This document shows, in pieces, positions 3,008 through 47,271 of a stretch of DNA of 64,000 bases. Both the position numbers and the translations under genes were made by a program. This stretch comes from Ignavibacteriota bacterium (GTDB lineage Bacteria; Bacteroidota; Ignavibacteria; UBA10030; SZUA-254): assembly GCA_016212665.1 (NCBI GenBank), contig JACREZ010000016.1, positions 186,001 through 250,000 of the forward strand. The letters run 5' to 3'. The notes beneath the pieces were generated by a model, which saw only the letters and a list, made by a program, of their open reading frames with translations, searched no databases and had not been told where the DNA came from. How positions within the stretch are numbered: the first letter of the stretch is position 1; every line of letters begins with the position of its first letter.

Positions 3008-3660
3008 AAACCTTAGTAACCATTACGACAAATGAATAAATACCTTATTACCTTGTAAAGCACAGCGCTATGAAAGTAGAATATTATAACCTTTACACAC
3101 ACTTCATACTAATAACAAAAAACCGACAGCCAATGATTCTGGAGTTTCATCGGGAGAGAATTGAGAAATACGTAACGGGAATTATCCAGAATAATGAATC
3201 GAAACTTTATAGTATTTATGCAAATCCCGAACACGTGCATTTTCTTGTTTCCCGTTCTCCTCATTTGTCGGAAGAAGCTTTCGTTACTATCATTGCTGAC
3301 AGTTCTACAAAGTTTATTAATGACAATAAATTATCTCAGGGAAGATTTGATTGGCAACAATCGTGTTCTGCCTTTTCTGTTTCTAAATCTGATGTTGATA
3401 AAGTTTGCAAATATATTCTCAATCAACGAGAACATCATAGAAAAACTTCTTTTATGGAGGAGTATGATACATTTATGAAGCACTATCAGAGAACACTGAA
3501 ATGGGAAAGAAGGGAATAAGGTAAAAATTCTTTTTTTTCCAATGTTACTAAGGTTTGAAATTGTAAAGATGTAAATCAGTGAAATCGAACGAGTAAAAGA
3601 ATCGAAAATGAAATGTGAAACCGGGGAACGATAACAACAAATGAATAAACGCTTAGTAAC
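3008..3660 (+). mobile_element. IS200/RAYT-like single-gene element with flanking repeats
   Basis: An HUH transposase gene is bracketed by structured repeats. AAACCTTAGTAACCATT at 3008-3024 reappears inverted at 3541-3556 (one base shorter). A third, direct CTTAGTAAC lies at 3652-3660. The 13-base ACAAATGAATAAA is directly repeated at 3028-3040 and 3637-3649. IS200/IS605 elements lack classical terminal inverted repeats, whereas REP-associated transposases sit between inverted REP copies, so the arrangement is closer to the latter. Exact ends cannot be set from one copy. Confidence 0.6.
3070..3519 (+). CDS. Transposase, IS200-like (HUH, Y1)
   Basis: This 149-residue protein has the size of a Y1 single-strand transposase. 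HVH at residues 55-57 (context PEHVHFLVS) is the HUH metal motif, and Tyr115 in KVCKYILNQREHH is the expected nucleophile with its trailing Gln119. The enzyme would cut and rejoin single-stranded DNA at hairpin ends. No TnpB/IscB accessory gene is present. The frame is intact, so the gene may be active. Base composition is AT-rich relative to the flanking genes, consistent with acquisition. Confidence 0.85.
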   Translation: MKVEYYNLYTHFILITKNRQPMILEFHRERIEKYVTGIIQNNESKLYSIYANPEHVHFLVSRSPHLSEEAFVTIIADSSTKFINDNKLSQGRFDWQQSCSAFSVSKSDVDKVCKYILNQREHHRKTSFMEEYDTFMKHYQRTLKWERRE

Positions 3661-12974: not shown

Positions 12975-13490
12975 TTATGTTAACCAATCCTCAAATGTAA
13001 TATCATTTCCTGCTATGTCTTTTAGTGGATTCATTTTGTCGTGAGTGACGAAAATTAGATTATATGTCATGGCTACAGCGCAAAGCCAAACGTCGTTTTC
13101 TTGTACCTGCAATTCTTTAGAAGTTGTAGGGTTAATCCATTCTTCAACTCTGTTCTTTTTAGATTTCCCCTTTTTATCTTTAGGTGCATATTTATCAAAA
13201 AGTCTTCCTCGAAGAATACCATATGTTTCGGTGACATAAGGATTAATATCTAAGATAGGGAATTGATTAACTGTATATCTTATAAGTTGATGTTGTTCTG
13301 CGTTAGGAGTTGGTGAGATGTTTAGACCATATTCTATTTCCCCTTTAGTAATAACAGATAGGAAAATTTTTGAAGAAGTTTGAAGTCCTTTTATTTTGCT
13401 TTGAAGTTTCAAACATTCGGGTGAAATACAACCGTTTTTCATCTCAAGATAACAAGGAATAATGTTTGTATCTATTAAGTAGTCGCGCAT
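12975..13490 (-). CDS. PIN-domain nuclease (VapC-like), coupled to the upstream methyltransferase
   Basis: The PIN acidic residues are in place: Asp7 in YLIDTNII, Glu51 in KGEIEYG, Asp133 in ENDVWLCAVA and Asp151 in FVTHDK. PIN proteins are metal-dependent ribonucleases, usually toxins. At 171 residues it is longer than a minimal VapC, with an extra Lys-rich insert (KDKKGKSKKNR, residues 104-114). No small VapB-type antitoxin gene is next to it. Instead, its ATG overlaps the stop codon of the DNA methyltransferase gene (TAATG), implying coupled translation and a joint role. Confidence 0.8.
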   Translation of the reverse strand: MRDYLIDTNIIPCYLEMKNGCISPECLKLQSKIKGLQTSSKIFLSVITKGEIEYGLNISPTPNAEQHQLIRYTVNQFPILDINPYVTETYGILRGRLFDKYAPKDKKGKSKKNRVEEWINPTTSKELQVQENDVWLCAVAMTYNLIFVTHDKMNPLKDIAGNDITFEDWLT

Positions 13491-16117
13491 TAACCTTCAA
13501 TGTCCACAGTTTTCAAATGCTTGATTAATCTTTTGTCTATATTTGGAAGTCGTTCAAAGATTTTCTTGGGTGTACTTTCTTGATATTGCCGAGAAAGATA
13601 AATGTGAAGTGGGATCCATGATTTGAATTCTGGAGGGTAATAACCTTTGAATTCAAAAGGAACGGGGCGTTGTCTTCCCCAAAAAATATCTAATAGTTTT
13701 CTTTCTAAACGTGGGGGAAGAGCATACAATTTTAGAACCTCTGCGTCAATTTGTAATAATATATCCTTTGCGTCGTTAATTAAATCCGATGGAACGTTAA
13801 TATATTCTGACACTAAAGAAGAAATAGTATTGAGTTGAATGTTATGAATCTGGGGAATTGGTATACCGGAATACGCTCGCTTAGGAATACCGCGCTGTGA
13901 ACTGAAACCATATATGAAAGCTTGAGCTAAAGGTGAGTTTAACAATGCAGCTAGTATTTCGACATTTATCTGGTCATTTTTTGGCCAGACAGCATAAAAA
14001 TCTCTTGAAATTATTCTACTCTCGTTATCAATAATAGCAGCATAACGCCATGCGTGGCGGGACATTCTTCCTGCGGGGATAACCACCTTTGGTTTTTTCC
14101 AGTCAAGCTCCCATGCACCAAGTGCTCGATAACGGCGAAGTTCTTTCTCTGTCGCCATATAAACTGTATCCTGACAGAAGAATTGAAAGAATTTATTTGT
14201 TACATTAACAATAGCCGGTGATGAATTTTCAAAAGGCTTCTGTTTTATATAATTATTAATTTTCCCATCAACAATTCTAGGTTCGTATTGTACACCTATT
14301 TTTATATCAGCAATACTACTGAGGGTTGGGAGCCACTGTAGATTATCCCAAATTTCCTTTAGAAATGGAACGACAAGTTGTCCCTTCATTTGTTGTGTAA
14401 AGTATATGGATGGTACTGTCTCCTCCCAAGTCGTTTGATAATTTTTTTCAAAATCCTTTCTATTTTGATCGCGGACTTCGCGATAAACAGTTGTTATTAT
14501 TCTCTGCTTTTCGGTTCGTTTGGCAACCACAACTGCCGTCTCTGAATCCGCATGTTTGAATATTTTATCGGGTAACGTTGTAATAGAAATGATTTCAAAA
14601 CCATTTAGAATACTTTCGCGTTCTTTTCGATAATCAGAGCCATCAAGGAATGAGCGTGGTAATACTAGACCTATAAAACTTCCTTTGGATAATTTGGGAA
14701 ACACTCTACGTAACAAAAGAGCAGGTTTGGGAACATTATGACCGGATTCCTTTTGTACCTCAAAAGGAGGGTTCCCAACAAGTATCGAAATATTCGATAC
14801 CAATTTCTCAAGATTATTATTTTCGAATACATCCTGGCATTGAATATTCCAACCATTTGATTCAGGGAAATCTGCTAATGTTAGGCACATTCTTGCAACT
14901 TGCGTTGCAAATTCATCTTTGTCGTTTCCAATAAGGTGTTCAATGAAAAATTTGTGCCTTTGTTTTCCACTCCAGTCTCTTGGCAATAATCCTCTCATTC
15001 TTCTCATAGCGGCAATTAAGAAGATACTATGGCCACACATAATATCTCCCACATTCCATTTCGCACGCGGTATATCCTCAAAGGGAATTTGCCCTAAAAT
15101 GTAGTCAGCAAGGTAGGGTGGCGTACTATGTATGCCAAGCTCTTTTCGTGCTTCGGAAGTTACGAGAGTATTTTCATAAACATACGTGAGCGAATCAACT
15201 GACAAATTTCTAAAAGAAAAACTATCACCAATCTCGGTTGAGATATCTTTCAATAATGATGAAGGTATGTTTAGAGAGAGAGTATTAAATTTATCGTTGT
15301 AATAATCCTGAACGGATTTCAGTGTTTCACGAGGCTGTGAAAAATCAATATCAAGATTAGGTACTATCTTGCTATCTTTCAAGAGTTTTGCCGTAAGTAA
15401 CTTGAAGATAAGATCAAAAATCCCTCTATCAGGAATTTTTGTTTTGGAGAGTTTTTGATGGTTTACAATTATATTAAGAACGCGTTTGATAAGCGTATCT
15501 ATTTTCCCCGATGCTTCATGCTCTAAGGCTTGGAGTAAGCCTAAATCAATAAAATCATATTGTTGAGGAATCGGCTTTAAGTTTCCAAGTCCGAGTTTAT
15601 ATCGAATCAGTGCGTCCGGATTCCACGTCTTTCTATGCTCTTTAATTAACTTTACTAAATTATCAGTTGGAAAACGTTCAATAAAGACAGGGGCTCTTTC
15701 AGCATTTACCCACCGCTCGGTTTGCCCATTTATGATAATAAAATATTGGGTAGCTCCGAAAGAGCGAAAATTTTTCGCAACTGACTCTGTGTCAGTAGCG
15801 TTATCTGAAAAATGGATACCAAAGCAAGCGGAACGGTAATTCAATGGTTCTTGACCATAAATACCAAGATGTATTTTTCTTAATAAAGCATTTTGAGAAA
15901 AAAAATCCGTAAACTCACAATCTTTTTTGATCAAATTGCGGGTATATCCGATATCAGTAAAAGCGTTGACAATATGTTGAACGTTATGTTCCAAATCTGG
16001 AAAATGTTGTATAAAAAATAATCTGAATGAGGTTTCTATATTAAAAGGGAGACAGTTATAGCCTGAATGACTGTTTGAAATATAGCCATTCACAAGATTA
16101 ACACAAAGAATAACCAC
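13490..16117 (-). CDS. N6-adenine DNA methyltransferase, Eco57I/type I M-like, with specificity region
   Basis: Residues 312-341 (YVYENTLVTSEARKELG to TPPYLADYIL) match the stretch ahead of the SAM site in type I/IIG methyltransferases. DIMCGHSIFLI at 358-368 is a variant motif I, and VGNPPF at 447-452 is catalytic motif IV. The last 300 residues look like a target-recognition domain (KIGVQYEPRI, RGIPKRAYSGIPIPQ). The first 200 residues are unassigned; no PD-(D/E)XK core is obvious there. The start is GTG, and a second GTG at 16093 is an alternative. The gene is AT-rich and stands alone except for the coupled PIN gene, suggesting a horizontally acquired defence module. Confidence 0.82.
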   Translation of the reverse strand: MVILCVNLVNGYISNSHSGYNCLPFNIETSFRLFFIQHFPDLEHNVQHIVNAFTDIGYTRNLIKKDCEFTDFFSQNALLRKIHLGIYGQEPLNYRSACFGIHFSDNATDTESVAKNFRSFGATQYFIIINGQTERWVNAERAPVFIERFPTDNLVKLIKEHRKTWNPDALIRYKLGLGNLKPIPQQYDFIDLGLLQALEHEASGKIDTLIKRVLNIIVNHQKLSKTKIPDRGIFDLIFKLLTAKLLKDSKIVPNLDIDFSQPRETLKSVQDYYNDKFNTLSLNIPSSLLKDISTEIGDSFSFRNLSVDSLTYVYENTLVTSEARKELGIHSTPPYLADYILGQIPFEDIPRAKWNVGDIMCGHSIFLIAAMRRMRGLLPRDWSGKQRHKFFIEHLIGNDKDEFATQVARMCLTLADFPESNGWNIQCQDVFENNNLEKLVSNISILVGNPPFEVQKESGHNVPKPALLLRRVFPKLSKGSFIGLVLPRSFLDGSDYRKERESILNGFEIISITTLPDKIFKHADSETAVVVAKRTEKQRIITTVYREVRDQNRKDFEKNYQTTWEETVPSIYFTQQMKGQLVVPFLKEIWDNLQWLPTLSSIADIKIGVQYEPRIVDGKINNYIKQKPFENSSPAIVNVTNKFFQFFCQDTVYMATEKELRRYRALGAWELDWKKPKVVIPAGRMSRHAWRYAAIIDNESRIISRDFYAVWPKNDQINVEILAALLNSPLAQAFIYGFSSQRGIPKRAYSGIPIPQIHNIQLNTISSLVSEYINVPSDLINDAKDILLQIDAEVLKLYALPPRLERKLLDIFWGRQRPVPFEFKGYYPPEFKSWIPLHIYLSRQYQESTPKKIFERLPNIDKRLIKHLKTVDIEG

Positions 16118-41945: not shown

Positions 41946-42773
41946 TTACTTTCTCGTGTTTGCGCCTTCACCTTTAATTAAGGGATTGCGGTCATCAATG
42001 ATTGCACGTTTCAGACGGGGATTGCTTTTTTGTAATTGATACGCCCAATCAAACGTCACCCGGCTTGACGAAACCGAGTTGACACGAATCTTTGCATAAT
42101 GGTCGTCCCACGTCCAGACGACATACGTGTGTCCGGGAATTACTCGAACATCTTTTGTTGGCGACCAACCCGAAGCGGGAGCTTCGCCAATCTCGTAGAG
42201 AGATTTAGTGTATCCCATATCCTGGATATCAGTATCTTCCCAGACCACGAGATAGAAACTACCTTCGTAATGCTCAAAATAAACATCAGTGTACTTATCA
42301 TTGTAATCTCCTATTGTGTATGATGAAAAATCGTAGCCCGCTGAGTTGGGCGCAGTTCTGAAATTTGCAAGCGGGATGTTATATCCTTCAGGACGAGGTG
42401 TATCGTAGGCAACTTCCTTGCTGAGTGCGCTTTCATTGTAGTCATAATCGAATGCTGTGACGGCGTAGTAATATGTGTAACCATTTCGTGCGCCGTTGTC
42501 GGTGAAGGAAGTTCCGCGTGTTGTTCCGAATAATGTATAGGTTCCGTCATACGAAGAACTCACCAACACATTGTACCCGGCAACATCCCGCTCGGGATTT
42601 GCGAGCCAGTAAATATCAATAACATTATCACCAGTGCTTGTAGCAATGCCGCGTGGCGCAGAGGGTGGAGTAATGTCGGGTTCGATGATTCTCTCGTGAC
42701 ATCCGAAGAACATCAGAGAGAACGTCATTGCAATGGTTGTCAAAATCGTTTTCATGTTCATGTCCTTGTTCAT
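41946..42773 (-). CDS. Lipoprotein with fibronectin type III domain
   Basis: A lipobox (FSLMFFGC) follows the signal sequence. A FnIII domain lies at about residues 35-125 (PPSAPRGIAT, YNVLVSSSYDGTYTLFG, GYTYYYAVTAFDYDYNES). The C-terminal 130 residues form an aromatic-rich beta domain (EHYEGSFYLVVWEDTD, HTYVVWTWDDHYAKI) that I do not recognise. It is probably an outer-membrane lipoprotein in an extracellular or periplasmic binding role. Confidence 0.8.
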   Translation of the reverse strand: MNKDMNMKTILTTIAMTFSLMFFGCHERIIEPDITPPSAPRGIATSTGDNVIDIYWLANPERDVAGYNVLVSSSYDGTYTLFGTTRGTSFTDNGARNGYTYYYAVTAFDYDYNESALSKEVAYDTPRPEGYNIPLANFRTAPNSAGYDFSSYTIGDYNDKYTDVYFEHYEGSFYLVVWEDTDIQDMGYTKSLYEIGEAPASGWSPTKDVRVIPGHTYVVWTWDDHYAKIRVNSVSSSRVTFDWAYQLQKSNPRLKRAIIDDRNPLIKGEGANTRK

Positions 42774-43050
42774 TTGTTTGAATGAATAATGACAAGCGAC
42801 GTGCCAAACGAATAAATAAGAAAAGAGAAGAAGAATAAGGAATTATTCTTCAGTTCGAAGAAGAAATGTATTGTAATGAACCGAGTTAGTAGGGGATTTA
42901 GGACAAAATTGAAAAAGTACAGAAAATATTGTACTATCTAACGACTAAATATTTAGGGCATATAATTATATCTAAACAAGTGAACAACGTTACGATTATC
43001 AAAACTCTAAATGAATACTCTCCATGAATTTTAATAAGTAAAAAAAAGTT
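42774..43050. other. AT-rich gap ahead of the kinase island
   Basis: 277 bases without a convincing gene, separating the divergent lipoprotein gene and the kinase operon. Both promoters must lie here. AGTAC at 42916-42920 and GTACT at 42931-42935 form a short inverted repeat around AGAAAATATT that could be an operator; this is only a shape observation. Confidence 0.35.
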
Positions 43051-43968
43051 ATGATTCCTTACGTCCCCAATGTTGAACAGTTATTAGAAAAATTACCGCA
43101 ATTCACAAAACTACATTCTCATAAAAAAGGAGGATTCAAAATATTTTATCCTGCAGAGAGAAATGATGGGACAATGGAGGCATTAAAATTGGCATATGTC
43201 CCAGCATTTGATGATATAGACGAAAAAGTACGTTTTGACTTGACAGAGGAAGTTGAGAAGCGGTTACAAAGAGAGATTGGATTGCTTGGAAGAAGCAAAA
43301 GTCAATACATTGTTAAGCTAGGAAATCTTGCCCCAACTTCACTTTCATTTTCTGGCTTTAAATTTATCGCATACACTGAAGAATTATTAATCGGTGATGA
43401 CTTGCATTCATTCATTCAAAAAGGAAAAGTTCCCGATGAGAAAGAACTACGACTACTTGCAACATGTATTATTGAGGCAATTAAGGATTTATGGTTCAAT
43501 TTAAATACAGTACACAGGGATATAAAGCCACTTAATGTAATTAAGACAAATGATAGTCATAGACCATTTATAGTACTTGATTTAGGTTTAGCTTTTTCAA
43601 TATATGAATCTGCGCTAACGATTGATCCGCATTTGAGATTTCCACCACCAGGTACAACAAGATACTTGGCCCCCGAAATGTTAAACCCAAATTTTCGCGA
43701 TACCCTTGATTACCGGAGTGATTTATACGCAATGGGAATCACTTTATTCGAATACGCTGCGGGGATACATCCGTTGGCAAGAAATAGAGATGATTTATTA
43801 CAAACATTAACAAGAATTATACGTGAGATTCCAAAACCGTTAGAAATATATCGTTCTGATTTATCTAAAGAATTTACGTCGGCGGTAAATCAGTTGTTAA
43901 AGAAAATGCCTGCCTTGAGGCCAGCAAATTTAACAACACTCAAAAAAATGATAGGAACTGAATTATGA
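43051..43968 (+). CDS. Serine/threonine protein kinase (eukaryotic-like)
   Basis: A kinase domain fills the 305 residues. Lys46 in EALKLAY is the ATP-anchoring lysine, HRDIKPLNV has catalytic Asp157, the DFG position is DLG at 177-179, APE is at 207-209, and Asp224 in YRSDLYAMGITLFEYAAG is the subdomain IX aspartate. All catalytic residues are present, so it is probably active. There is no membrane segment or sensor domain, unlike PknB-type kinases. It is AT-rich and overlaps the next gene by 4 bases (ATGA), so both form one operon. Confidence 0.88.
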   Translation: MIPYVPNVEQLLEKLPQFTKLHSHKKGGFKIFYPAERNDGTMEALKLAYVPAFDDIDEKVRFDLTEEVEKRLQREIGLLGRSKSQYIVKLGNLAPTSLSFSGFKFIAYTEELLIGDDLHSFIQKGKVPDEKELRLLATCIIEAIKDLWFNLNTVHRDIKPLNVIKTNDSHRPFIVLDLGLAFSIYESALTIDPHLRFPPPGTTRYLAPEMLNPNFRDTLDYRSDLYAMGITLFEYAAGIHPLARNRDDLLQTLTRIIREIPKPLEIYRSDLSKEFTSAVNQLLKKMPALRPANLTTLKKMIGTEL

Positions 43969-45158
43969 AATTATTAGCACAACATGGATATGCAGAAGGG
44001 ACAAAAATATATGAAGGACTGGAAAAAAACATAATAGATGGCGTAATCTTCAGCCCAAAGGATATTCGACCAGAGAATCTTATTCAAAAAATAGATGGAT
44101 TACTTTCAACAAATATTTCAGCTGAGATATATTTCGATCCACAGGTTTATGCTGCTATTTTTACAAATGATTCAAGAATTAATTTGGGTAAACTTATAGA
44201 TTACAATGATTATTTTTTGCCTATTAATAGAAATCGTCTTGAGATTGAAAAGCATGTTATCGAAGTTCTTAGGACGACTATAAAATATCAATTACAAACA
44301 AAAGTAACAGGTATCATTGGCCCCAATATTCTAATTTCACGCTCGCTTGATTCAAGAGAAGCAGCGATAGCCAGATCCTTTATAAGATTAACCAAGCAAG
44401 TTTATTCTGAATTCAATGACAAGAGACCTGTTTATGCAACAATCGCAGTATCAAAAGATGCTTTAGTTAATTTAAATGAGTTACAAGAATTTCTCAATGA
44501 TATTACTTTCATAGAATATCCACCCGATGGTTTCTACATTTTGGTTGCAACAAAAAGCAATGACATGAAATATGAAATATTCAATACAGATGTTATTGCA
44601 GGATGGATGCTTATCAATTACAGTTTCAAAATAAATGGATTTAAAGTGATAAATGGATATTCTGATTTGTTGTCTCCATTTTTAGGTGCTGTCGGTGGTG
44701 ATGTAGGAGCAACTGGTTGGTGGTCGAATCTTAGAACATTTTCAATGGAACGTTTCTTACCTTCGTCTTCAGGCGGAAGAATGCCAATATTAAGGTATCT
44801 TAGTGTTGCACTTTTCAATAGAATTACCATTTTTGAGTATCAGTCGTGGCGGAGGTTGTTTTCTGAGATTGTGAATGGACTTTCCTACGATGAAACTTTT
44901 AATGATCCAAATATAGAGCCAGAGCGTTCAAAAGAAGTTTTACAAAATTGGGAAGCCTTAAAGAAAATGACACAAAATATTGTTAAAGAAGATGTTGTTT
45001 TGGGGTTAAAACAATGCGAAGTTTCTCTTGATGTTGCACAACAATTATACGATAAAATCCGTAGTGTTGGTCTAAGACCAGAAACCAAATCAAACGATGA
45101 TCACTTAGAATCACTTAAAGAAGGAATTAGAGAATTTAGAAAACTAGCTGAGTTATAA
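43965..45158 (+). CDS. Unrecognised protein coupled to the kinase (predicted alpha/beta barrel)
   Basis: 397 residues with alternating strands and helices: DGVIFSPKDIRPENL, then AEIYFDPQVYAAIF, GIIGPNILISRS, VYATIAVSKDALVN and FIEYPPDGFYILVAT. A Gly-rich segment with GAVGGDVGATGWW and the positively charged FLPSSSGGRMP comes next, and then a helical C-terminus. The order suggests a TIM-like barrel; a distant tRNA-guanine-transglycosylase-like fold is one guess, but no catalytic motif can be confirmed. The tight coupling makes it the likely partner or substrate of the kinase. Confidence 0.7.
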   Translation: MKLLAQHGYAEGTKIYEGLEKNIIDGVIFSPKDIRPENLIQKIDGLLSTNISAEIYFDPQVYAAIFTNDSRINLGKLIDYNDYFLPINRNRLEIEKHVIEVLRTTIKYQLQTKVTGIIGPNILISRSLDSREAAIARSFIRLTKQVYSEFNDKRPVYATIAVSKDALVNLNELQEFLNDITFIEYPPDGFYILVATKSNDMKYEIFNTDVIAGWMLINYSFKINGFKVINGYSDLLSPFLGAVGGDVGATGWWSNLRTFSMERFLPSSSGGRMPILRYLSVALFNRITIFEYQSWRRLFSEIVNGLSYDETFNDPNIEPERSKEVLQNWEALKKMTQNIVKEDVVLGLKQCEVSLDVAQQLYDKIRSVGLRPETKSNDDHLESLKEGIREFRKLAEL

Positions 45159-45707
45159 TTGGGCGGTAAGAAAAGATAAAGTTTTCCTCTTTGCTTGTAT
45201 ATTTAGTGGACGAGAGTAATGTGGGGTATAAATTTTTTGAATTTCCTTTGTTCTTTTATTGAAAGACCATAAGCCGACATGCAACGATTTAAAGGTTCCG
45301 GAAAAATATTTTGCTCTTGAAATATTATTGTCTGGTAATACAACGATTACCCTATTTGCGAAATAACGATAGCGCATTGCCTGTGATAAAGCTTTTTGCC
45401 AATCATTAATTTTCATTTCAAACGCGGTGACAAATTTACGTGTTCGAATTTCATCCCTATCATTCCATTTACTCTGGGTTATTTTTAAATAAATTAAATC
45501 AGCTATACCATAACCGTTTAATGAAAACTCTTTTGCAACGAGTCCATTTTGATTTGTATAAAGATTGAGAAATGCTTTAAGGAACGCGTTGACGAATAAT
45601 GATTCTGTTTTTTTTCTAGAAACCTTTAAAGGTAAATTTTTCCTAGGATTATATTGAAGAGTTTTGTTAAGTACAACGATTTGATTTATTTCATTATTTT
45701 TTATCAT
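45153..45707 (-). CDS. PD-(D/E)XK nuclease-like protein
   Basis: 184 residues with a restriction-endonuclease-like core: Asp70 in GYGIADLIYLKI, Glu97 and Lys99 in FVTAFEMKINDWQKAL, then a helix with Gln (ALSQAMRYRYFANRV) and the strand VIVVLPD. This is the D-(E)xK arrangement of many nucleases. It converges on the kinase operon, overlapping its end by 6 bases, and shares its low GC content. It is probably part of the same island. The nuclease family assignment comes from motif order only. Confidence 0.7.
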   Translation of the reverse strand: MIKNNEINQIVVLNKTLQYNPRKNLPLKVSRKKTESLFVNAFLKAFLNLYTNQNGLVAKEFSLNGYGIADLIYLKITQSKWNDRDEIRTRKFVTAFEMKINDWQKALSQAMRYRYFANRVIVVLPDNNISRAKYFSGTFKSLHVGLWSFNKRTKEIQKIYTPHYSRPLNIQAKRKTLSFLTAQL

Positions 45708-45794
45708 TGAAGGGATTTTTTGTGTGTGTACTTTACAAAGTTGTTTTAGTAAATATCTACAAAAATTGAAAGGGAAGCAAATAGTAGATGATTT

Positions 45795-47078
45795 TTATAG
45801 AGAAATATAAATCACTCCGTTATTCACCACTCCCCAAGCCTTCCCTTTCAATTTGTACCCATCAAACGGTGAGTTTTTTGATTTCGATTTGAAGTTCGCT
45901 GTCTTAACAGTCCATTCATAATTCGGGTTGAGGATAGTGATGTTTGTCTTTTCACCTTCCGCAATTTTGATTGAAGGAAGCCGGAGAATCTTCCTCGGGT
46001 TGATGGAAAACTTTTCGATGAGTTGTTCTACAGATAATATTCCCGTGTGCACAAGTTCGGTGAACGCTAAACCGATTGCCGTTTCCAATCCGACAATACC
46101 GAACGGCGCGTATAAGAACTCAACTTGTTTTTCATCGTACGAGTGCGGTGCGTGGTCGGTGGCAATCACGTCAATCGTTCCGTCGCGTAATCCTTCTTTC
46201 ATCGCTTCAACATCATCACGGGTGCGGAGCGGCGGATTCATCTTTGTGTTTGTATCGAACGAACGAACTGCTTCATCCGTGAGAGTGAAATGATGCGGCG
46301 TTACCTCACACGTTACAGGCAATCCTTTTGCTTTTGCCGAGCGAACCAATTCAACCGCACCCGCGGTGCTGACATGCGCGACATGGTATCGCGCCTGAAC
46401 ATATTCAACTAATGTTATATCTCGTGCAACCATGATATCTTCCGCAATTGAAGGAATCGGAGCCATGCCGAGTGAGGTGGAGATAAATCCTTCATTCATC
46501 ACGCCTCCTTTTGTCAGCGATGATTCTTCTGCATGTTGGATGATGCACATATCGAGCATCGAAGCATACTCAAGCGCACGGCGCATATTTTCAGAATCAC
46601 TGACAGGCGCGCCGTCATCAGAAAACGCAACCGCGCCAGCTTCTGCAAGTTCGAGCATCGGCGCAAGTTCTTTTCCTTCACGCGCTTTTGTTACCGCGCC
46701 AATTGGAAACACATCAACCAAACCACTGTTGACCTGTTTTGCTTTCGTTCTGATATCTCGAACAACTGAGGCGTTATCAATTGCCGGGTTTGTGTTCGGC
46801 ATACAACAGACAGCAGTGAATCCGCCATGCGCCGCCGAAAGCGTTCCCGTTTCAATCGTCTCTTTGTGTTCAAATCCCGGCTCACGAAGATGGACGTGCA
46901 TATCAATAAATCCGGGAGCGATAATCATCCCATTCAAATCGTGAACCTGCACATCCTTTCCCGCCGCAATGTTCGGTTTCATTTTTTCGATGATGCCGTC
47001 AACAATCAAAACGTCCGATTCGGTGTCTGTTCCGTTTGTAGGGTCAATCACTCTGCCATGTTTCAGAAGTATCTTCAT
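45795..47078 (-). CDS. pyrC: Dihydroorotase
   Basis: Zinc-site signature DMHVHLREPGFEHKET near residues 58-73, central motifs GFTAVCCMPNTNPAIDN and QHAEESSLT, and the C-terminal ATDHAPHSYDEK carrying the catalytic Asp. This is the class I amidohydrolase form that works with aspartate carbamoyltransferase. I start at ATG 47078 (MKILLKHGRVIDPTNG); the longer frame adds residues encoded by intergenic repeat. It converts carbamoyl aspartate to dihydroorotate, the step after pyrB. Confidence 0.93.
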   Translation of the reverse strand: MKILLKHGRVIDPTNGTDTESDVLIVDGIIEKMKPNIAAGKDVQVHDLNGMIIAPGFIDMHVHLREPGFEHKETIETGTLSAAHGGFTAVCCMPNTNPAIDNASVVRDIRTKAKQVNSGLVDVFPIGAVTKAREGKELAPMLELAEAGAVAFSDDGAPVSDSENMRRALEYASMLDMCIIQHAEESSLTKGGVMNEGFISTSLGMAPIPSIAEDIMVARDITLVEYVQARYHVAHVSTAGAVELVRSAKAKGLPVTCEVTPHHFTLTDEAVRSFDTNTKMNPPLRTRDDVEAMKEGLRDGTIDVIATDHAPHSYDEKQVEFLYAPFGIVGLETAIGLAFTELVHTGILSVEQLIEKFSINPRKILRLPSIKIAEGEKTNITILNPNYEWTVKTANFKSKSKNSPFDGYKLKGKAWGVVNNGVIYISL

Positions 47079-47271
47079 AAAGTTTCCTGTTTTCAGTTTT
47101 CTGTTTCCAGTTGTCTCAAAATTGTCATTTGTCAATAGTCATTCGTCATTTGTATTTAGTGAGTTGTTAGTCGTGAGTGGTTAGTAGAGTTTAGTTTGAA
47201 CTTTCAGAGACTCACCACTAACGACTCACTAATCACCAATTAACCACTCACTAATTAACCAATCACCAACT
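47079..47271. repeat. Repeat-filled spacer between pyrB and pyrC with a long inverted repeat
   Basis: The spacer holds three stutter types: TTTTCAGTTTTCTGTTTCCA, GTCATTTGTCAATAGTCATT and CACTAATTAACCAATCACCA. AGTGAGTTGTTAGTCGTGAG at 47158-47177 faces 47210-47230 as an inverted repeat of 21 bases with two mismatches. In the pyr mRNA this would form a stable stem between the two coding regions. Confidence 0.65.

Follow-up and report, generated by a model that had tools for sequence, protein, structure and literature searches.

A conserved three-gene unit pairing a Ser/Thr kinase and a predicted PD-(D/E)XK nuclease with a protein of predicted transglycosylase fold, found in a probable inserted cassette

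In tRNA-guanine transglycosylases (TGTs) the second catalytic Asp is the nucleophile, DpdA is a base-swapping transglycosylase that acts on DNA, and PD-T4-6 is a single-gene system built on a kinase. Control of a nuclease by a kinase through a partner protein has been described for VapKSC, where the authors' data support release of a PIN nuclease from its partner by the kinase, and where the operon gives protection from at least one phage (PMC13373217). Members of the sce7725, sce7726 and Beta_protein families appear, in passages of three papers, only as serovar- or strain-specific genes or as genes of mobile elements (PMC12457778, PMC13414232, PMC9394441). Here we analyse a locus in a stretch of 64,000 nucleotides from an Ignavibacteriota bacterium (the window), and consider whether it represents a system of three genes that moves horizontally and whose Ser/Thr kinase would control a predicted nuclease through a TGT-fold barrel protein, a proposal on which we judge the evidence to be evenly balanced.

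As shown in Table 1, the three genes are packed tightly, with an overlap of 4 bp between the kinase and barrel genes and a tail-to-tail overlap of 6 bp between the nuclease and barrel genes. The original prediction had described an AT-rich island of three genes, and the coordinates and strands of the open reading frames bear this out: the module has a GC content of 33.3%, against 44.1% and 44.3% in about 10 kb on either side, and none of 1,120 same-sized windows outside the module (step 50, within the 64 kb) is equally AT-rich. The cassette is flanked by a gene at 41946-42773 and by pyrC at 45795-47135, which are close neighbours in relatives of the same family (the gene order was viewed in five of them). 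Matches to these flanking genes are separated by 3,024 bp in the window and by 151-195 bp in every one of the 11 same-family relatives carrying both matches on one contig, a count to which G471, G472 and G482 do not belong, and this indicates that the three genes of the module most likely came in as a single piece.

Table 1. Features of the locus, with positions in the window.
Feature	Position	Strand	Basis
Ser/Thr protein kinase, 305 aa	43051..43968	+	PF00069 4.8e-24; catalytic residues K46, D157 (HRD), N162 and D177 (as DLG); APE from 207
TGT-fold (TIM-barrel) protein without zinc motif, 397 aa	43965..45158	+	AlphaFold model and structural alignment
PD-(D/E)XK-fold protein, 184 aa, convergent with barrel gene	45153..45707	-	Invariant triad; model pLDDT 89.1
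Probable inserted cassette	42774..45794	.	Between two flanking genes; ends approximate

Elsewhere in the window, a second AT-rich stretch (12975-16117) holds a PIN-like gene (12975-13490, minus strand) directly adjoining the gene of an 875-aa protein (13490-16117, minus strand), which by eye resembles the N6 DNA methylase of a type IIG-like restriction-modification (R-M) system. A 149-aa open reading frame at 3070-3519, also in an AT-rich stretch, resembles by eye an IS200-type transposase.

The kinase has the catalytic residues that had been claimed for it (Table 1), with a glycine loop that looks degenerate by eye. Its second above-cutoff Pfam match is another kinase model and no Pfam domain beyond the kinase was found in the 305-aa protein. 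Among 63 kinase matches checked by pattern search across the loci described below, some of them partial, an HRD-type loop with Asn was present in 60 and a DxG-type motif in 57. The kinase is matched by 33 PADLOC models, the best being PD-T4-6 (8.2e-25), and it scores 27.5 bits with the PglW model of BREX (NF033442), under the 990-bit cut-off. The third protein is, by its model, a PD-(D/E)XK-fold protein with a D...ExK triad and a predicted nuclease. The D...ExK core read in the original prediction consists of D70, E97 and K99 and is invariant in 59 of 59 aligned sequences, as are W103, Q109 and G145, and the order of helices and strands in the model is that of PD-(D/E)XK proteins. The best structural matches are 3dnx (Z 10.5), PaqCI (Z 9.5) and XisH (Z 8.9), and EndoMS is matched at Z 7.7. 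Many relatives carry an insert between the D and the ExK, winged-helix-like by weak matches, and the window copy is a short form without it.

When 395 genomes of the phylum were searched with the barrel as seed, three had a relative (the window's own, G139 and G143), and a three-member barrel profile returned the same three; in the order of G139 the barrel is present in 2 of 128 genomes. In both G139 and G143 the barrel has a kinase and a gene of PD-(D/E)XK type as neighbours, and G139 also has a PP2C phosphatase. A scan of genome contigs with the single barrel protein gave no result. Seeding instead with a four-sequence alignment of the nuclease, we found 88 relatives in genome contigs and kept 80 loci, which come from more than a dozen phyla of bacteria and archaea (phyla assigned by us from organism titles). 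A kinase is present at 65 of these loci, a barrel at 78 and both at 64; the barrel count comes from a profile iterated once on these same loci (76 of 80 with the uniterated seed profile) and includes a weak call at L091 (E 0.0005), and the trio was already known at L025, the G139 locus, and L045. Orientation within the module varies between loci: convergent arrangements (30 with a separate kinase, 5 with a fused one), co-directional ones with the nuclease last (13 separate, 10 fused) and nuclease-first ones with a separate kinase (6) occur beside 14 loci where the barrel has no kinase match and 2 without a barrel. Kinase and barrel are fused at 15 of the 80 loci, counting the near-duplicates L100 and L101.

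The three proteins also appear to have diverged together. Over 39 loci, after near-duplicates (L101, L104) and loci poorly covered by the profiles were dropped, Mantel correlations, which include shared host ancestry, were 0.91 for barrel and kinase, 0.88 for barrel and nuclease, and 0.81 for kinase and nuclease, and the largest permuted value was 0.27 (2,000 permutations per pair). The three genes are conserved as a unit: the neighbourhood conservation that the original prediction named as a check is seen at 64 of the nuclease-seeded loci and at both other barrel-seeded loci. Chance neighbourhood is ruled out by this recurrence, together with the finding that none of the three module profiles matches any of 20 control regions, each of 14 kb and all from one phylum. 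Nor is the barrel a housekeeping enzyme beside a kinase by chance, the outcome that had been named as fatal to the idea; its presence in 3 of 395 genomes and its fusion to the kinase at 15 of 80 loci rule this out.

Of the 15 loci without a kinase match, six lie at a contig end (L027, L035, L047, L063, L091, L092), five are from Patescibacteria (L067, L073, L078, L080, L096), and the remainder are L050, a lone nuclease with neither barrel nor kinase; L085, with nuclease and barrel and no kinase before the contig ends; and L095 (3690-6582, Saccharibacteria) and L097 (3863-6498, Nitrosopumilus), where a nuclease and a divergent barrel are preceded by two small genes. At L087 there is no barrel, and the contig end falls inside the kinase. 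In the five Patescibacteria a PIN-domain gene stands between barrel and nuclease, the nuclease being retained; PF13470 is over its cut-off in three of them, and two further PIN_3 members are presumably the genes of L073 and L080. A PP2C phosphatase is present at 18 of the 80 loci. In L097 the first small gene gives weak matches to winged-helix and Panacea models, and the second looks membrane-bound by eye.

Copies of the module were found on plasmids of Priestia, Natribaculum, Kocuria, Kineococcus, Arthrobacter and Polaromonas. Five of the seven plasmid records examined, among nine matched by the nuclease (H6 and H7 lie outside the seven), carry the trio, with barrels assigned by position and alignment and with kinase-barrel fusions in two; the other two, haloarchaeal records with partial nuclease matches, gave neither a kinase nor a barrel match, and the Polaromonas plasmid is a sixth copy, reached through the barrel. 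A tblastn search of plasmids and phages with the window barrel, a scan of viral contigs with the barrel profile, and a structure search of viral proteins (at E 0.001) all returned nothing. A nuclease scan of viral contigs gave four loci, none with a kinase match and one (L023) with a barrel fragment.

R-M models are matched by a few of 150 neighbouring genes (MTase_I 3, MTase_II 3, Specificity_I 2, possibly overlapping), and the nine models matched by 136 control genes include none for R-M. In the tallies, which list the first 25 families, no Pfam family reaches more than 4 of the 150 neighbours, and the flanks are mostly ordinary genes. The neighbours were drawn at random under a size limit from 312 open reading frames, leaving out five loci, L025 and frames above 900 aa, and the controls in the same manner from 192, again without frames above 900 aa, the controls coming from one phylum and the neighbours from many. 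The flank signal for a defence island is not strong. The original prediction, a possible phosphorylation-controlled anti-phage module, is partly supported: the trio recurs, no library model covers it, and the R-M signal nearby is modest. We nevertheless favour a defence role, which the module probably has, because of its patchy distribution, its plasmid copies, its insertion site and the R-M genes near some loci; the ordinary flanks and the one-phylum control keep this claim moderate.

The plasmid copies, the compactness of the cassette and its one site in the chromosome, and the PIN-domain gene, with no kinase match, of the five Patescibacteria would also suit a toxin-antitoxin or addiction system, in which the nuclease (or PIN) is the toxin, the barrel the antitoxin and the kinase a release switch, and in which the benefit is maintenance of a mobile element and not phage defence. 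We regard this as unlikely. The nuclease stays where the PIN is present, so that the PIN is no simple replacement for it; usual antitoxins are smaller than the barrel; and by eye no mobile-element gene was recognised among the open reading frames between 38000 and 50000.

The remaining explanations turn on the barrel. The original prediction recognised no family for the 397-residue protein, and searches of Pfam, PADLOC, NCBIfam and PHROGs indeed gave only noise-level matches (best E 0.013); it called the protein barrel-like, which was right, and did not recognise the fold, which in the model is that of TGTs. The AlphaFold model, built from an alignment of the window protein and 65 relatives (66 sequences), has a mean pLDDT of 94.8 and a pTM of 0.94. 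In a VIA-align comparison with the 1,000 chains ranked highest by Foldseek, all 50 PDB entries listed are TGTs (Z 19.4-20.4, rmsd 3.4-4.0), the best being the archaeal TGT 1j2b, solved with tRNA (Z 20.4, 298 residues, rmsd 3.5). A Z of 8 is reached by 935 of the 1,000 chains, so the margin of TGTs over unrelated TIM barrels is not established by these scores, and by Foldseek E-value type I dehydroquinases come first, with TGT at rank 18. At the level of sequence, a profile comparison of barrel and TGT was not significant (hhalign probability below 2%), PDB sequence and profile searches with the barrel found no TGT and only apparent noise, and a Pfam scan at E up to 1 gave no PF01702 match to the window barrel.

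Motifs of the wider family point to the same fold. A CxCxxC...H motif is present in 19 of 66 aligned barrels and missing from 47, the window member included, and it is placed where the TGT zinc site sits, 234 residues past a conserved Asp in L096, compared with 217 in the genome's own TGT. Taken as sequence evidence, this motif supports the TGT fold independently; its invariance in a 20-sequence alignment carries no weight, the members having been chosen for the motif. The conserved Asp, D58, is found in 65 of 66 barrels, at a position that fits the first catalytic Asp of TGTs. The column that we infer to correspond to the nucleophile (249) holds T in 31, S in 16, A in 13, E in 3, C in 2 and V in 1 of the 66 sequences and never D, a mapping drawn from order, spacing and a local profile match of 122 columns that is not significant by probability (E 0.028, probability 1.8%), and not from superposition. 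Since this column is never Asp, the barrel family is likely to consist of pseudo-enzymes.

These residues bear on a modification-restriction system, in which the barrel would be an active transglycosylase swapping a DNA or RNA base, the nuclease would cut unmarked targets and the kinase would tune both. The TGT fold of the model, D58 at the place of the first catalytic Asp and the zinc-type motif of some members speak for such an activity, but the putative nucleophile column lacks Asp throughout and most barrels, that of the window among them, lack the zinc-type motif, and we find this explanation rather improbable. Very improbable is tRNA surveillance, with the barrel binding tRNA anticodon arms as TGTs do and the nuclease cutting tRNA or DNA once the tRNA pool has been changed by phage factors: the best structural match of the barrel is a TGT solved with tRNA, but no RNA-binding domain was found in the window barrel by a Pfam scan at E up to 1, and several of the top structural matches to the nuclease act on DNA (PaqCI, a Pyrococcus repair endonuclease, EndoMS), others being of unknown function.

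The module looks like a kinase-controlled system of immunity or stress response. In the explanation that we prefer, the barrel would be a pseudo-transglycosylase that recognises a nucleobase, a modified base, or tRNA or DNA, and that either restrains the nuclease or keeps it directed at its target. Upon an invasion signal the kinase would phosphorylate the barrel, the nuclease or both, and the nuclease could then cut nucleic acid, leading to phage defence or abortive infection. Where a PP2C phosphatase is encoded it might reset the switch, and in Patescibacteria the PIN-domain gene would stand in the kinase's place, a natural swap. A bolder reading, possible but short of probable, is an undescribed immune system of bacteria and archaea in which a pseudo-transglycosylase reads the state of a nucleobase or tRNA and unleashes a PD-(D/E)XK nuclease under a Hanks-type kinase (or a PIN protein in Patescibacteria).

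The trio looks new, judged by the library misses and by the open-access literature: no description of it was found in open-access full texts, whose coverage leaves most subscription papers and bioRxiv outside. Its central protein is in none of four family libraries, yet in very distant lineages members of this family are coupled or fused to both a kinase and a nuclease. If the preferred explanation is true, the module would couple kinase signalling and the action of a nuclease in a new way, and would put the TGT fold to a new use beyond the modification of tRNA. It also makes testable the idea that a TGT fold detects queuosine, 7-deazaguanine bases or tRNA in the course of an infection.

How the module compares with known systems depends on the protein considered. 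With TGTs (PF01702), the barrel shares the fold over about 298 aligned residues and some relatives (19 of 66) keep the CxCxxC...H motif, whereas the window barrel differs in having no Pfam match, no zinc motif, no Asp at the inferred nucleophile position, and a kinase and a nuclease as neighbours. The BRC/Dpd loci are alike in that TGT homologues have been recruited into defence loci; their partners are HerA/FtsK, PglZ and BrxC-like proteins, and the available part of that paper mentions no trio of kinase, TGT and PD-(D/E)XK protein (PMC12839542). PD-T4-6 is the best match of the kinase domain among the 33 PADLOC models that match it, whereas here there are three genes.

On the nuclease side, the closest relatives that have a name are the sce7725/sce7726 and Beta_protein pairs. 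The sce7726 model (NF033832), whose members pair with sce7725 or Beta_protein (PF14350), matches the Balneolaceae nuclease at 8.1e-6 (25.9 bits) and the window copy at 0.0049 (16.8 bits), both below the curated 70-bit cut-off. Four sce7725/Beta_protein members examined by eye (L008-L011) also adjoin a gene with a D/ExK-like core, and L010 and L011 have an ImmA/IrrE-like and an HTH gene upstream as well. The sce7725 and Beta_protein profiles show no similarity to the barrel (two sequences each), and by eye no kinase is present at those four short loci.

The closest tested parallel, by analogy, is VapKSC. VapKSC and CapK-CapS share with the module a small operon of kinase, partner and nuclease, and may serve as a model of how it works; they differ in combining a GHKL kinase with a STAS partner, joined in VapKSC by VapC, where the module has a Hanks-type kinase (PF00069) and a partner of predicted TGT fold (PMC13373217).
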